64,000 bases of DNA from Salegentibacter sediminis (lineage in GTDB: Bacteria; Bacteroidota; Bacteroidia; Flavobacteriales; Flavobacteriaceae). Positions within the stretch are counted from its first letter, which is position 1, and each line of letters starts with the position of its first letter. The notes beneath the pieces were generated by a model. The model was not told where the DNA came from. It saw only the letters and a list, made by a program, of their open reading frames with translations, and made no database searches. The stretch spans positions 93,922 to 157,921 of the forward strand of contig NZ_MSJR01000005.1 of assembly GCF_002078605.1 (NCBI RefSeq). Reading direction: 5' to 3'. A program made the position numbers and the translations under genes. Below are positions 55,069-60,990 of this stretch, one piece after another.

Positions 55069-55086
55069 GTATGATATTGATCATAC
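55069..55086. promoter_or_regulatory. FNR/CRP-type palindrome GTATGAT-ATTG-ATCATAC upstream of iorA
   Basis: Perfect 7-bp arms with 4-bp spacer; core TGATATTGATCA differs by one base from the sites at 1054 and 58867. Confidence 0.55.
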
Positions 55087-55215: not shown

Positions 55216-56829
55216 ATGAAAAGTTTACTATTAGGTAATGAAGCACTTGCTCAAGGTAGTATTGATGCAGGTTTATCTGGTGTTTATGCTTACCCCGGCA
55301 CACCTTCAACTGAAATAACTGAATATATTCAAAAGTCAAAACTAGCTAAGGAATTAAAGATACATACCACCTGGTCGGTTAATGAAAAAACGGCCATGGA
55401 AGCAGCTTTGGGCATGTCCTATGTTGGGAAGAGAGCTATGGTGGTAATGAAGCACGTAGGATTAAATGTGGCTTCAGATGTTTTTATGAATATGGCGGTT
55501 TCCGGAGTAAATGGTGGACTCGTAGTTGTAGTAGCCGATGATCCTTCCATGCACTCCTCGCAGAATGAACAGGATTCTCGTTTTTATGGAAAATTTGCGA
55601 TGATCCCAATTCTTGAACCATCAAATCAGCAGGAAGCTTATGACGTTATGTCTTATGCCTTTGATCTTTCGGAAGAACTAAAACTACCTGTATTGTTAAG
55701 ACTGGTTACCCGTTTATCGCATTCGCGGGCAGGTATAGAAATAAAAGAAAGACGGAAGCCAAACGAAGTAAATTTACCCTCAGATACCTCACGATTTGCT
55801 TTACTACCAATGAATGCTAAAAAGCAGTTTGATTTACTGGTTAATAAACAGGATATTTTAATCGAGCATTCTGAAAATTCCAGTCTAAACAGCCTTAAGT
55901 TAAGTAACAACAGTAGCATAGGGATCATAGCCTGTGGGTTGGCCTATAATTATGTGATGGAAAATATAGGAGAAGATGAAAGCTCTTATTCTATTTTAAA
56001 GATCTCCCAATATCCATTACCCAAAGAAAAAATAAAGACCTTATACGGGCACTGCGATGAAATTTTCGTTATAGAAGAAGGCTATCCAATAGTAGAAGAA
56101 TTATTGCATAACTATTTTGATGAAAATGATAAAATAAAAGGAAAGTTATCGGGTGATCTTCCTCGAACCGGAGAACTGAATCCCAATATAGTTGGCCGTT
56201 CCTTAGGCCTTATTAAAGGTAGTGATAAACCTATTCCTTCAATAGTTACTCCCAGGCCACCACAACTCTGTGAAGGTTGTGGTCATACAGATCTTTTTAA
56301 TACTATAAATGAGGTGATTCCTGAAATTGGGAACAAAAATGTCTTCGGAGATATTGGTTGTTATGCCCTGGGGGCTTTGCCACCTTTGAATACCATAAAT
56401 GCGTTAATAGATATGGGAGCATCCATAACAATGGCAAAAGGAGCTGCAGATGCGGGGCTGGAACCTGCTATTGGGGTTATTGGCGATTCAACTTTCACCC
56501 ATTCGGGTATGACAGGGCTTTTGGATGCGGTCTATGAAAATTCACCTATTACGGTTATTATTTCAGACAACTCTGCAATTGCTATGACAGGAGCTCAGGA
56601 ATCAACTGCCGTAGGAAGATTACATAAGATTTGTTTAGGTATAGGAGTCCATCCCGATCACCTGAAAACTATAGTGCCTCTAAAAAAGAACCACGATGAA
56701 AATGTAGAAGTATTGCGGAATGAATTAAAATACAAAGGTGTGTCAGTCATTATTTCTGAAAGACCCTGCGTGAGACTATCCAGAGATCAAAAAGCAGAAA
56801 TTAAAGCAAGGATCGCTTCATTAAACTAG
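55216..56829 (+). CDS. iorA: Indolepyruvate (2-oxoacid):ferredoxin oxidoreductase, alpha subunit, lacking the C-terminal ferredoxin domain
   Basis: GNEALAQGSIDAGLSGVYAYPGTPSTEITEYI, HVGLNVASDVFMNMA, RPPQLCEGCGHTDLF, FGDIGCYALGALPPLNTI, MGASITMAKGA, IGDSTFTHSGMTGL (TPP site), ISERPCVRL; stop follows after 18 residues. Confidence 0.92.
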   Translation: MKSLLLGNEALAQGSIDAGLSGVYAYPGTPSTEITEYIQKSKLAKELKIHTTWSVNEKTAMEAALGMSYVGKRAMVVMKHVGLNVASDVFMNMAVSGVNGGLVVVVADDPSMHSSQNEQDSRFYGKFAMIPILEPSNQQEAYDVMSYAFDLSEELKLPVLLRLVTRLSHSRAGIEIKERRKPNEVNLPSDTSRFALLPMNAKKQFDLLVNKQDILIEHSENSSLNSLKLSNNSSIGIIACGLAYNYVMENIGEDESSYSILKISQYPLPKEKIKTLYGHCDEIFVIEEGYPIVEELLHNYFDENDKIKGKLSGDLPRTGELNPNIVGRSLGLIKGSDKPIPSIVTPRPPQLCEGCGHTDLFNTINEVIPEIGNKNVFGDIGCYALGALPPLNTINALIDMGASITMAKGAADAGLEPAIGVIGDSTFTHSGMTGLLDAVYENSPITVIISDNSAIAMTGAQESTAVGRLHKICLGIGVHPDHLKTIVPLKKNHDENVEVLRNELKYKGVSVIISERPCVRLSRDQKAEIKARIASLN

Positions 56830-56857
56830 AGTATTTGACTTAGAAAAAATTAAACAG

Positions 56858-57457
56858 ATGAAAACAAATATAATATTATCAGGTGTAGGCGGTCAGGGAA
56901 TTTTAACTATTGCTGCGGTTTTGGATACAGCTGCTTTAAGCGATGATTTGTTCATTAAACAATCAGAGGTTCACGGGATGAGCCAACGCGGCGGTGCCGT
57001 TCAGTCACACGTAAGAATATCTGACCAAGAAATATTTTCTGATCTCATTCCGGAGGGAAAAGCTGATTTAATTTTATCGGTAGAACCAATGGAATTATTA
57101 AGGTATATGCCTTTTCTGAAGAAGGATGGCTGGCTGGTCACAGATTCAGAATCTTTTGTAAATATTGCTAATTATCCTGAAAAAAATGATCTGTTTGACC
57201 AGATAAAAAAACACCCGAATCATGTAATTGTAGATGCCACCGAAATCGCTAAAAAGATCGGGAATTCAAAAGCGGCTAATATGGTATTATTGGGAGCGGC
57301 ATCAGCGATAATTCCTTTATCGGAAGAGAGCCTGATCGAAGCCATCAAAAAATTGTTTCAGCGTAAAAGTGAAAGAATCATTAAGCTGAATTTGGAAGCT
57401 TTTGCTGAAGGTAAAAAAGTAGCTGAAGGAATCACAGATCTAGCCACACATACATAA
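56858..57457 (+). CDS. iorB: Indolepyruvate (2-oxoacid):ferredoxin oxidoreductase, beta (gamma-domain) subunit
   Basis: NIILSGVGGQGILTIAAVLDTAALSDDLFIKQSEVHGMSQRGGAVQSHVRIS; immediately downstream of iorA. Confidence 0.93.
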   Translation: MKTNIILSGVGGQGILTIAAVLDTAALSDDLFIKQSEVHGMSQRGGAVQSHVRISDQEIFSDLIPEGKADLILSVEPMELLRYMPFLKKDGWLVTDSESFVNIANYPEKNDLFDQIKKHPNHVIVDATEIAKKIGNSKAANMVLLGAASAIIPLSEESLIEAIKKLFQRKSERIIKLNLEAFAEGKKVAEGITDLATHT

Positions 57458-57591
57458 ATTATTAAGGGATTTTGGAGAATTATAAAGATAAATAATATTC
57501 ATGCCGGGAATTAAATTCTTATTCTCGATAGAATTTTTTATAAATCCTTAAATAAATCTTTATTTGATATAAAAAACTGTAGATCAGGAAA

Positions 57592-58809
57592 CTATAAAGA
57601 TTCTATTTTAGAGTTCTCAAGTACTTTTTTTATGGCTTCAGATAAAATAATGACGCCTTTTTCTATACTATCCTTTGGCATATTTGAAAAAGAAAGTCGC
57701 AATCTGTCATCCTTTTTACTGGCAGGATCAAAGGTTCTGCCGGTTACAAATACAACCCCTTTAGTAACACTTTCGTTGAAGATTTCTGTTGATTTGATAT
57801 GAGACGGTAATTTAAGCCAGATGTAAAAACCGCCTTTTGGTTCATTCCAGGTGATCTCTTTCGGCATATAGGTTTTTAGATGTTTTTGAAGCAAATTCTT
57901 GCGCTCTAAATATTCATTTCTCAAAAACTTCAGATAAGGCTCGAGTTTATGCTGTGCTAAAAATTCATTTGCCAATATTTGCATGAAATTAGAGGTGCAG
58001 GCGTCCATTGCTTGTTTGACCGTTTCCGCTTTTTCGAAAATTTCTTCCGAAGAAAGCATAAAGCCTAATCTGAAACCAGGTCCCAATATTTTTGAAAATG
58101 AGCCTGTATAAATAATTTCTACATCCTTGGCACCATAGGATTTCATTGATTTGGTGAGGTGTTGTTCCTCTTCATTAAAATATAAGTCACTGTAAGCATC
58201 ATCTTCCAGTAATATTATTCCTGTACCAGCTAAAACTTCCAAAAGTTCTTTTTTCCTTTCAGGAGTGTAAATAATTCCCGCCGGATTGTGATAATTAGGC
58301 GTGACATATAGAAATTTAGGCTTTCGGTCTAAAGATTCAATTTTACTTTTCAGGGCTTCTATATCAATACCATCTTTATCAATTGGGATGCTATGTATCT
58401 CAGCTCTGGCAGTTTCAAACACAGACAGTGCTCCTAAAAAGCTAGGGTTTTCGGTTAATATAATATCCCCTTCATTAACAAATTCCTGAGTGATAATGGA
58501 AATGGCTTGAAGCGAACCGGTAGTGATTAAAATTCTATTGTCTTCAACTGCCAATCCCTTATTTTTCAAATAGCTTTCCAGGGATTTGATTAGAGGGGGA
58601 TAACCAGAGGTTGGACCATATTGAAAACATAATTTTTTTATGTCTTCAGGCAGGGAATTATAAATGTCATCAATTTGTTTTACGGGAAACAGATCATTGT
58701 TTGGCATACCCCCGGCAAATGAGATCAGGCTTTTTCCGGAAGCCTGTTTCATTAATTGTTTAATGTCTTCTGAATGCATGGAGTTAACTGCGTTCGAAAA
58801 TGCATACAT
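57592..58809 (-). CDS. Class-I PLP-dependent aminotransferase (aromatic/2-aminoadipate aminotransferase-like)
   Basis: ISFAGGMPNNDLFPV, FQYGPTSGYPPL, YVTPNYHNPAGI, LLEDDAYSDLYF, YTGSFSKILGPGFRLGF (PLP lysine), DRLRLSFSN. Confidence 0.92.
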   Translation of the reverse strand: MYAFSNAVNSMHSEDIKQLMKQASGKSLISFAGGMPNNDLFPVKQIDDIYNSLPEDIKKLCFQYGPTSGYPPLIKSLESYLKNKGLAVEDNRILITTGSLQAISIITQEFVNEGDIILTENPSFLGALSVFETARAEIHSIPIDKDGIDIEALKSKIESLDRKPKFLYVTPNYHNPAGIIYTPERKKELLEVLAGTGIILLEDDAYSDLYFNEEEQHLTKSMKSYGAKDVEIIYTGSFSKILGPGFRLGFMLSSEEIFEKAETVKQAMDACTSNFMQILANEFLAQHKLEPYLKFLRNEYLERKNLLQKHLKTYMPKEITWNEPKGGFYIWLKLPSHIKSTEIFNESVTKGVVFVTGRTFDPASKKDDRLRLSFSNMPKDSIEKGVIILSEAIKKVLENSKIESL

Positions 58810-58866
58810 ATCCTTAAAAGTTTTAACTGTCTTCTCAAAAGAACAATTTTTTAATTAAACAAATTG

Positions 58867-58878
58867 TGATAATGATCA
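58867..58878. promoter_or_regulatory. FNR/CRP-type box TGATAATGATCA in the divergent aminotransferase/ADP-ligase promoter
   Basis: TGAT-N4-ATCA centred about 60 nt from both divergent start codons; 13-mer TGATAATGATCAG identical to the site at 1054. Confidence 0.55.
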
Positions 58879-58932
58879 GCTAAAGTCCTTTTTTAAATGG
58901 TTTATTTTACAATTATTAAATCCCTTGTCTTT

Positions 58933-60990
58933 ATGCTTCATTCAAAATTAATTCATCCCAAAAGTATTGTTGTTGTTGGAGGGTCTGATAATATTCATAG
59001 TCCTGGTGGCAGAGTTTTAAAAAATTTAATCGATCATAAATTTAAAGGACGATTATTCGTGGTTAATCCCAGGCAGGATGTTGTTCAGGGGGTTATATCT
59101 TATAATAATATCAATGATATTCCCGAAGTAGATTTAGCCATAATTGCGATCTCAGCAAAATATGTTGTTGAAGCCGTTATGGTTCTTGCACAACAAAAGA
59201 ATACTAAAGGCTTTATAATTTTCTCTGCCGGTTTTAGTGAAAAAGATGAGTACGGCGCTAAGTTAGAAGAGGAAATTGTTGGATTAATCGATGAGGCAGG
59301 CGGAAATTTATTAGGTCCCAATAACATCGGATTAATAAATAAACATTATACGGGAGTTTTTACAACACCGGTGCCTAAACTAGATGAAAGCGGAGTTGAT
59401 TTTGTATCAGGTTCTGGGGCAACAGCTGTTTTTATAATTGAAGCGGCACAAAGAATGGGGCTTAGGTTCTCCAGTATTTATACCGTTGGAAACAGTGCCC
59501 AAATAGGCGTGGAGGAAATTTTGGAATATTTAGACCAATCTTTTAAAAAAGATATAAGTTCAAAAGTAAAACTGCTTTATATTGAAAGTATTAAGAACCC
59601 ACTTAAGTTTTTAAAACACACTACTTCGTTAATACGTAAAGGCTGTAAAATAGCGGCCATTAAGGCGGGTAGTTCAGAAGCAGGAAACAGGGCGGCTTCC
59701 TCACATACAGGCGCTATAGCTAATTCAGATGTTTTTATAGATACCCTGTTCAAAAAAGCCGGTATAATTCGTTGCTATGGCAGAAATGAACTTATTAATG
59801 TTGCCGGTATTCTCTTGCAGAAAGAATCTAAAGGAAAGAACATAGCCATCATTACTCATGCCGGAGGTCCTGCTGTAATGTTAACAGATGTGTTGTCAAA
59901 GAATGGTTTAAAGGTCCCACCTCTGGAAGGAAAAGATCACGATGTTTTGTTAGACCAGTTGTTTGATGGATCTTCTGTGTCTAATCCTATTGATTTCCTG
60001 GCAACAGGCAATGCTGAGCAGTTAGAAGCCATACTTGAACACTGTGAAAACAAATGTCCTGAAATTGATGCGATGGCTGTTATTTTTGGGAGTCCGGGCC
60101 TGATTGGGGTGGATGATGTGTATGAAGTGCTGGATAAAAAAATAAAGACCTCTAAAAAGCCGATCTATGCCATTCTACCTTCAGTGGTGAATGTGAAAAA
60201 TGAAATTCAGGAGTTTATAAAAAAAGCCAATATAGCATTTGATGATGAAGTTTTATTCGGAAGTGCCCTGGCTAAGGTATATAATCATACCTCAATTAGT
60301 GATGGGACTAAAAACGCTGAATTTAAATCTTTGCAAAAAACGAGACAACTGATCGATGCGCTTCCAAACGGATATATGCCAACAGAATCGGCCGTTACCT
60401 TGTTGGAGTATGCAGGAGTAAAATTTGCAACGCCATATTATGTTAAGAATAGAGAGGAATTAGAGAATGTTTTACAAACCGTTAAATACCCTTTAGTTCT
60501 TAAAGTTGAAGGACCTTTGCATAAATCTGATGTAGGTGGGGTTATTTTAAATATTGCAAGTGACACCGAATTAAAAAACAGCTTTCATAAGCTGATGCAA
60601 ATTGAGGGTGCAAATTCAGTTATAATCCAGCCTATGCTGAAGGGAATGGAGCTATTTATTGGGGCAAAAAAGGAAGCTAATTATCCTCACGTTATTTTAT
60701 GCGGCCTGGGTGGTATTTTTGTAGAGGTGTTAAAAGATGTGAGTGCTGCAATGATTCCTGTTTCACATGAAGATGCTCTAAAAATGGTTAATGATCTAAA
60801 AGCATATCCAATATTAAAAGGCGTTAGAGGTCAAAGTGGGATAAATATTGAATTTTTTGCCGAGACTATTGTCAACATTTCCAATTTGCTGATTATGGTT
60901 CCGGAAATTGCAGAATTAGACCTTAATCCTCTTATGGCTAATGAAAATGATGTGACTGCCGTGGATGTAAGAATTCGTTTAGAAAAATAG
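58933..60990 (+). CDS. Acetate/aryl-acetate--CoA ligase (ADP-forming), fused alpha-beta subunits
   Basis: CoA-binding domain HPKSIVVVGGSDNIHSPGGRVLKNLI, phosphohistidine loop AASSHTGAIANSDVF, ATP-grasp YPLVLKVEGPLHKSDVGGVILNI, ELDLNPLM. Start corrected to 58933. Confidence 0.92.
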   Translation: MLHSKLIHPKSIVVVGGSDNIHSPGGRVLKNLIDHKFKGRLFVVNPRQDVVQGVISYNNINDIPEVDLAIIAISAKYVVEAVMVLAQQKNTKGFIIFSAGFSEKDEYGAKLEEEIVGLIDEAGGNLLGPNNIGLINKHYTGVFTTPVPKLDESGVDFVSGSGATAVFIIEAAQRMGLRFSSIYTVGNSAQIGVEEILEYLDQSFKKDISSKVKLLYIESIKNPLKFLKHTTSLIRKGCKIAAIKAGSSEAGNRAASSHTGAIANSDVFIDTLFKKAGIIRCYGRNELINVAGILLQKESKGKNIAIITHAGGPAVMLTDVLSKNGLKVPPLEGKDHDVLLDQLFDGSSVSNPIDFLATGNAEQLEAILEHCENKCPEIDAMAVIFGSPGLIGVDDVYEVLDKKIKTSKKPIYAILPSVVNVKNEIQEFIKKANIAFDDEVLFGSALAKVYNHTSISDGTKNAEFKSLQKTRQLIDALPNGYMPTESAVTLLEYAGVKFATPYYVKNREELENVLQTVKYPLVLKVEGPLHKSDVGGVILNIASDTELKNSFHKLMQIEGANSVIIQPMLKGMELFIGAKKEANYPHVILCGLGGIFVEVLKDVSAAMIPVSHEDALKMVNDLKAYPILKGVRGQSGINIEFFAETIVNISNLLIMVPEIAELDLNPLMANENDVTAVDVRIRLEK

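Follow-up and report, generated by a model that had tools for sequence, protein, structure and literature searches.

Why would a flavobacterium encode a 2-oxoacid:ferredoxin oxidoreductase next to an ADP-forming ligase, and when would it use them? This question is raised by four genes of Salegentibacter sediminis contained in a stretch of 64,000 nucleotides (contig NZ_MSJR01000005.1, positions 93,922 to 157,921; hereafter the window) from a genome of 3.26 Mb. An open reading frame (ORF) check of the window confirmed them at positions 55216-60990, where a preliminary description of the sequence had placed them. They encode the two subunits of an indolepyruvate oxidoreductase (IOR), IorA and IorB, a class I pyridoxal phosphate (PLP) aminotransferase and an ADP-forming acyl-CoA synthetase (ACD). 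We consider it probable that, under oxygen limitation, the unit decarboxylates 2-oxoacids oxidatively, arylpyruvates being the likeliest substrates, with ferredoxin delivering electrons to complex I and ATP being formed by ACD.

Conservation and protein anatomy of the unit

The four-gene set is more than a chance association, because iorAB and ACD have been kept together in 57/59 Flavobacteriia loci from named genomes (one of the two exceptions is a contig end; these loci are mutually related, and their counts are not independent) and because dN/dS, the ratio of nonsynonymous to synonymous substitution rates, is <0.1 for iorA, iorB and the aminotransferase gene against two relatives. The gene iorB directly follows iorA in 80/80 loci. 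Since different genes flank the unit in the Salegentibacter/Salinimicrobium, Lutimonas and Lutibacter lines, a shared neighbourhood alone does not account for the link between iorAB and ACD. The co-conservation in relatives on which the preliminary description had made its proposal depend was thus observed. Its statement that the four genes are adjacent was correct as to their presence together; the aminotransferase gene lies on the strand opposite to iorAB and ACD, and the arrangement is iorAB, a divergent aminotransferase gene and ACD rather than a single operon.

The unit is rare, being found in about 4/298 genomes of the order. Matches to IorA with E <1e-50 were obtained in 5/298 genomes, the match in one of these being divergent (32% identity), and ACD was present in all four genomes with a close IorA vs 2 of the other 294, a count that ignores kinship. 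At the empty site of a congeneric species lacking iorAB, hsp20 immediately adjoins the 404-aa gene that in the window comes after ACD. Judged from these sequences, the unit appears to be discrete and to occur in only part of the lineages. Flavobacteriia rows cluster together in the IorA tree (support 84), and a subclade of 28 rows (support 100) is the one with the inverted aminotransferase gene between iorB and ACD. The nearest relatives found for both IorA and ACD were from Bacteroidota. A recent transfer from archaea was unsupported in an IorA tree built without archaeal rows and an ACD comparison covering plasmid records and the genomes of the order only. A literature search for ADP-forming synthetases and substrate-level phosphorylation in Flavobacteria found nothing.

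The enzymes named in the preliminary description were borne out by hidden Markov model (HMM) and PDB matches. IorA matched TIGR03336 (2.6e-157) over profile positions 1-541 of 595; its 524.7 bits lie below the curated cut-off of 650.9, and the match stops 54 profile positions short of the end. IorB exceeded the cut-off of NF005324 (288 bits vs 222) and also matched Pfam POR, completing a two-subunit architecture with POR_N and TPP_enzyme_C in IorA. In an alignment of 80 IorA sequences (the window and 79 named relatives, Bacteroidota-type), Cys352, Cys355 and Cys382 were conserved in 80/80 and Cys518 in 79, with one gap; from knowledge of the family, we take these to be the ligands of the proximal [4Fe-4S] cluster near thiamine diphosphate (ThDP). 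The CxxCxxCxxxC motif of a C-terminal 2[4Fe-4S] ferredoxin domain was found in none of the 80 sequences and is present at the C terminus of three IorA proteins from Clostridia and Negativicutes. Because the proximal cysteines are conserved and the ferredoxin motif is missing, IorA likely carries one proximal cluster and uses an external ferredoxin. The idea that IorA lost the ferredoxin domain in adapting to aerobic life was rejected, since Bacteroidales, including Bacteroides, also have a short IorA. An AlphaFold model (predicted local distance difference test, pLDDT, 71.7), for which the Foldseek ranking mixed ThDP decarboxylases with 2-oxoacid:ferredoxin oxidoreductases (OFORs), was not used.

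ACD contains the CoA_binding_2, Succ_CoA_lig and ATP-grasp_5 domains, and its alignment with the closest solved structure spans residues 15-693. The phosphohistidine loop SSHTGA, noticed in the preliminary description, is at residues 268-273, and SSHTGA or ASHTGA occurs in 57/57 ACD copies. The second histidine, in the ATP-grasp part, lies in LHKSDVGG; HKSD was found in most copies, a few being gapped or frame-broken. The aminotransferase, present in 25 Flavobacteriia loci, has as closest solved chains 1x0m and 3aov (PH0207), 1wst (multiple-substrate aminotransferase) and 2egy (alpha-aminoadipate aminotransferase), which place it in the KAT-II/LysN group, whose members have a broad substrate range.

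Energy genes carry the same FNR-like box as the unit

Promoter alignment revealed the palindrome GTATGAT-N4-ATCATAC upstream of iorA, with the spacing and half-site of the classical FNR box, TTGAT-N4-ATCAA. Its core, TGAY-N4-RTCA, was found upstream of iorA in 55/58 Flavobacteriia loci, where about 1 was expected (27/27 loci of the aminotransferase type and 28/31 of the Lutibacter type), and in 0/19 loci from Bacteroidales and other relatives. It was also present in 25/25 aminotransferase-ACD intergenic regions (0.28 expected). As background, the core lies ahead of 80/570 (~14%) of the other genes in these loci, and 52 of these 80 boxes belong to two adjacent gene families, hemA-like and AraC-like, which probably share one conserved site. 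Among Lutibacter loci (such as L043-L075), the core precedes genes of both families almost everywhere, which suggests that haem synthesis belongs to this regulon as well.

The strong form of the box occurs six times in the window's genome, against 0 for a reversed-pattern control. One copy is at iorA, two lie between KorAB and the divergent genes for a 2[4Fe-4S] ferredoxin and pyruvate:ferredoxin oxidoreductase (PFOR), and the others are ahead of a cytochrome c-fasciclin-NosZ-NosL-NosD operon, of UspA-symporter-phosphoenolpyruvate carboxykinase (PEPCK) genes, and of genes for a small protein and a globin-like protein. Salegentibacter flavus has the same set plus one; the congener lacking iorAB has a strong box at nosZ only. 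Strong boxes of Lutibacter maritimus precede nrfHA, nosZ, a likely norCB and modABC (the last two named by reading), as well as FixI/cbb3 genes beside an FNR-like regulator. In more AT-rich genomes the reversed pattern gave several chance matches, so that an isolated site in such a genome counts for less. The Lutibacter regulator beside the cbb3 genes has its own box and an FNR-like score, and shares 34% identity with one of the CRP/FNR-type regulators of the window's genome, of which there are six. Because both promoters of the unit carry an FNR-like box common to PFOR/KorAB, the nos operon and PEPCK, expression of iorA and of aminotransferase/ACD is probably induced by low oxygen.

The same genome offers routes for the electrons. 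Its complex I cluster, nuoABCD-HIJKLM (A, B, C, D, H, I, K and L by HMM, J and M by reading), contains no nuoEFG, and no complex-I-type NuoF was found elsewhere, E and G not having been searched separately. The sole NuoF-type match adjoins formate dehydrogenase (FdhF); this alpha subunit with a NuoEF-like partner (G000 C12, L105) could be taken for complex I NuoF. We infer that a ferredoxin-fed complex I is the natural electron sink. The nitrous oxide (N2O) reductase operon (G000 C20, L141:1-5640) encodes a NosZ that scores 926.7 bits with the Sec-dependent model TIGR04246, whose cut-off is 625. A role of IorAB as the sole ferredoxin-linked oxidoreductase of the genome, considered after a protein search with one IorA match, was dropped when a ferredoxin search revealed PFOR and KorAB. 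In the preliminary description, such a pathway was held to be unusual for an aerobic heterotroph; that view is not supported in a genome with PFOR, KorAB, ferredoxins, complex I without NuoEFG, N2O reductase and a common FNR-like box. These genes suggest that flavobacteria usually called aerobic retain a cryptic programme of amino-acid oxidation in anoxia, linked to N2O reduction.

Substrate and direction

In Bacteroides finegoldii (L106) the arrangement is iorA-iorB-paaK, the IorA of Bacteroides being 57% identical to that of the window. Because phenylacetate-CoA ligase there adjoins iorAB in the position that ACD has here, an aryl substrate for IorAB and ACD is plausible. Selenomonas has iorAB-paaK-ACT, and one Melioribacter contig brings together PaaK, an ACT-domain-like protein, an aminotransferase, iorAB and an ACD-like gene. 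In some Bacteroidales, a gene beside iorB suspected to be PaaK was actually serine palmitoyltransferase. Among characterised proteins, the IOR and the ligase of Bacteroides are the nearest kin. The Bacteroides ligase is an arylacetate-CoA ligase (PMC13285125), and work cited in that paper involves the B. thetaiotaomicron IOR in the conversion of Phe to phenylacetate. These relatives support the proposed logic from arylpyruvate to aryl-CoA and then acid plus ATP. A bacterial IOR beside an ACD is no novelty as such, since ADP-forming ligases (PF13607) have been noted next to some Firmicutes PFOR homologues (PMC13285125).

The preliminary description had centred on auxin. This picture is unsupported, and phenylacetate or hydroxyphenylacetate appears a likelier product, because 0/66 gut Bacteroidota strains had quantifiable indole-3-acetate (PMC13290082). 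Neither PaaA nor HgmA, markers of the aerobic Paa and homogentisate routes, was found in the genome; the feeding of phenylacetyl-CoA into the Paa pathway was rejected on the first count and the homogentisate route on the second, so the aryl acids would be end products.

The aminotransferase would provide phenyl-, hydroxyphenyl- or indolepyruvate, which IorAB would convert with CoA to arylacetyl-CoA and CO2. Electrons would pass through the single proximal [4Fe-4S] cluster, whose ligands are present, to the separate 2[4Fe-4S] ferredoxin, to be re-oxidised by complex I without NuoEFG towards the quinone pool and N2O reductase or a terminal oxidase, the gene set for this being present. ACD, with its catalytic residues in place, would use arylacetyl-CoA, ADP and Pi to give arylacetate, CoA and ATP, and binding at the boxes of both promoters would bring about the low-oxygen induction.

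Several observations weigh against this reading, besides the kinship of the loci. ACD scores under every curated substrate-specific NCBIfam cut-off, and its clade occurs in Bacteroides and Parabacteroides as well, where it is not directly linked to iorAB. Because ADP-forming enzymes work in both directions, the pathway could run either way. Six CRP/FNR-type regulators are candidate binders of the box. No motif predicting indolepyruvate use was found (PMC13290082), the substrate not being readable from sequence.

The reversibility of ACD would also allow anoxic salvage, as proposed for methanogens and Bacteroides: ACD would activate environmental arylacetates, IorAB would carboxylate the arylacetyl-CoA to arylpyruvate with reduced ferredoxin, which PFOR could supply in anoxia, and the aminotransferase would make Phe, Tyr or Trp from it. 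The coupling of iorAB with the AMP-forming PaaK in Bacteroides and Selenomonas relatives and the biosynthetic role argued for Bacteroides (PMC13285125) speak in its favour. However, an ADP-forming enzyme in place of PaaK in Flavobacteriia exerts a weaker pull towards activation, and a box common to energy genes suits catabolism better, which makes salvage unlikely here. Bacteroidota IorAB associated with PaaK or with ACD offer a direct test of the natural direction of the enzyme, which bears on phenylacetate from Bacteroides, a gut metabolite.

Use of the unit mainly on branched-chain or other non-aromatic 2-oxoacids, giving isobutyrate, isovalerate and similar acids, seems improbable too. It would suit the breadth of the aminotransferase group and the resemblance of ACD to general acetate and 4-hydroxybutyrate ligases, and 2-ketoisovalerate oxidoreductase (VOR)-like enzymes overlap aryl ones (PMC13290082); on the other hand, IorAB has two subunits with the IOR model as best full-length match, and its relatives are linked to phenylacetate-CoA ligase. 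That the genes are loosely connected housekeeping neighbours and the palindrome a general CRP-family site unrelated to oxygen is very unlikely, since the number of regulators and the background boxes, mostly one hemA/AraC site, would agree with it but the six strong copies, among them those at PFOR/ferredoxin, nos, PEPCK and globin-like genes, and the Lutibacter maritimus sites at nrfHA, nosZ, a likely norCB, cbb3 oxidase and FNR-like regulator genes would not.

The oxidative reading resembles peptide fermentation in Thermococcales, in which transamination and CoA- and ferredoxin-dependent oxidative decarboxylation are followed by ATP formation by an ADP-forming synthetase (for IOR, Mai and Adams 1994, as cited in PMC13285125; for the P. 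furiosus synthetases, PMC3942289). The unit described here differs in an IorA without C-terminal ferredoxin domain, in an ACD with alpha and beta parts fused in one chain, in its closest relatives found, which are Bacteroidota, and in being probably coupled to respiration under an FNR-like box. The label "archaeal-style" given to it earlier fits the reaction logic; archaeal descent is unsupported, given the Bacteroidota relatives found for IorA and ACD and an IorA without the ferredoxin domain of the TIGR03336 model. The Bacteroides iorA-iorB-paaK unit has the short IorA of the same clade, the same iorA-iorB order and an arylacetyl-CoA intermediate, but AMP-forming PaaK instead of ACD and no aminotransferase; in none of the Bacteroidales loci examined was such a box found ahead of iorA. 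Oxidative Stickland systems of clostridia, with IOR or HpdDEFG and a kinase or ligase (PMC13285125), likewise lead from arylpyruvate to arylacetate, ATP and reduced ferredoxin; they are fermentative and from Firmicutes, with a longer IorA carrying a ferredoxin domain or a four-subunit enzyme, and phosphotransacylase plus kinase often replace ACD.

More tentatively, and with some doubt, the AMP-forming partner PaaK of Bacteroides may have been replaced in Flavobacteriia by the ADP-forming synthetase, with an aminotransferase added in one lineage and an FNR-like switch shared with N2O reductase and PFOR. Aromatic amino acids would then give ATP twice in anoxia, at ACD and through a complex I driven by ferredoxin, with release of aryl acetates, perhaps including auxins, in sediments and on algae; if true, marine sediments and algal surfaces would have one more bacterial supplier of these acids.

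Coordinates and other features

The gap between iorA and iorB is 28 bp, and 87 bp separate the called ORFs of the divergent aminotransferase and ACD genes. The true start of ACD is probably the ATG at 58933 rather than the called 58897, because this start is conserved in relatives; it gives 685 aa, a family-typical length. An Rfam search gave nothing above threshold.

Features of the iorAB-ACD region, in window coordinates
Feature	Coordinates	Strand	Remarks
iorA, indolepyruvate (2-oxoacid) oxidoreductase alpha	55216..56829	+	537 aa; TIGR03336 match
iorB, oxidoreductase beta (gamma-type domain)	56858..57457	+	199 aa; NF005324, Pfam POR
Class I PLP aminotransferase, KAT-II/LysN group	57592..58809	-	405 aa; by closest solved chains
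ACD, fused alpha-beta ADP-forming acyl-CoA synthetase	58897..60990	+	By domains and closest solved structure 8wzu
FNR-like palindrome TATGAT-ATTG-ATCATA	55070..55085		146 bp before iorA ATG
FNR-like core box TGAT-AATG-ATCA	58867..58878		Between divergent aminotransferase and ACD genes

In loci L033, L086 and L087, iorA or ACD seems to be split into two ORFs, by decay or assembly error. Near the box-bearing globin-like gene, a PAS histidine kinase lies beside a response regulator that is joined in one protein with a DNA-binding part of CRP/FNR type (G000 C16, L140:1311-4972), a candidate oxygen or redox regulator. In Salinimicrobium catena (G021), a strong box is located 73 bp upstream of a gene for a 598-aa protein with no NCBIfam match (L170:3545-5338). 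Three further core boxes are present in the window, at positions 1054, 8472 and 20115.

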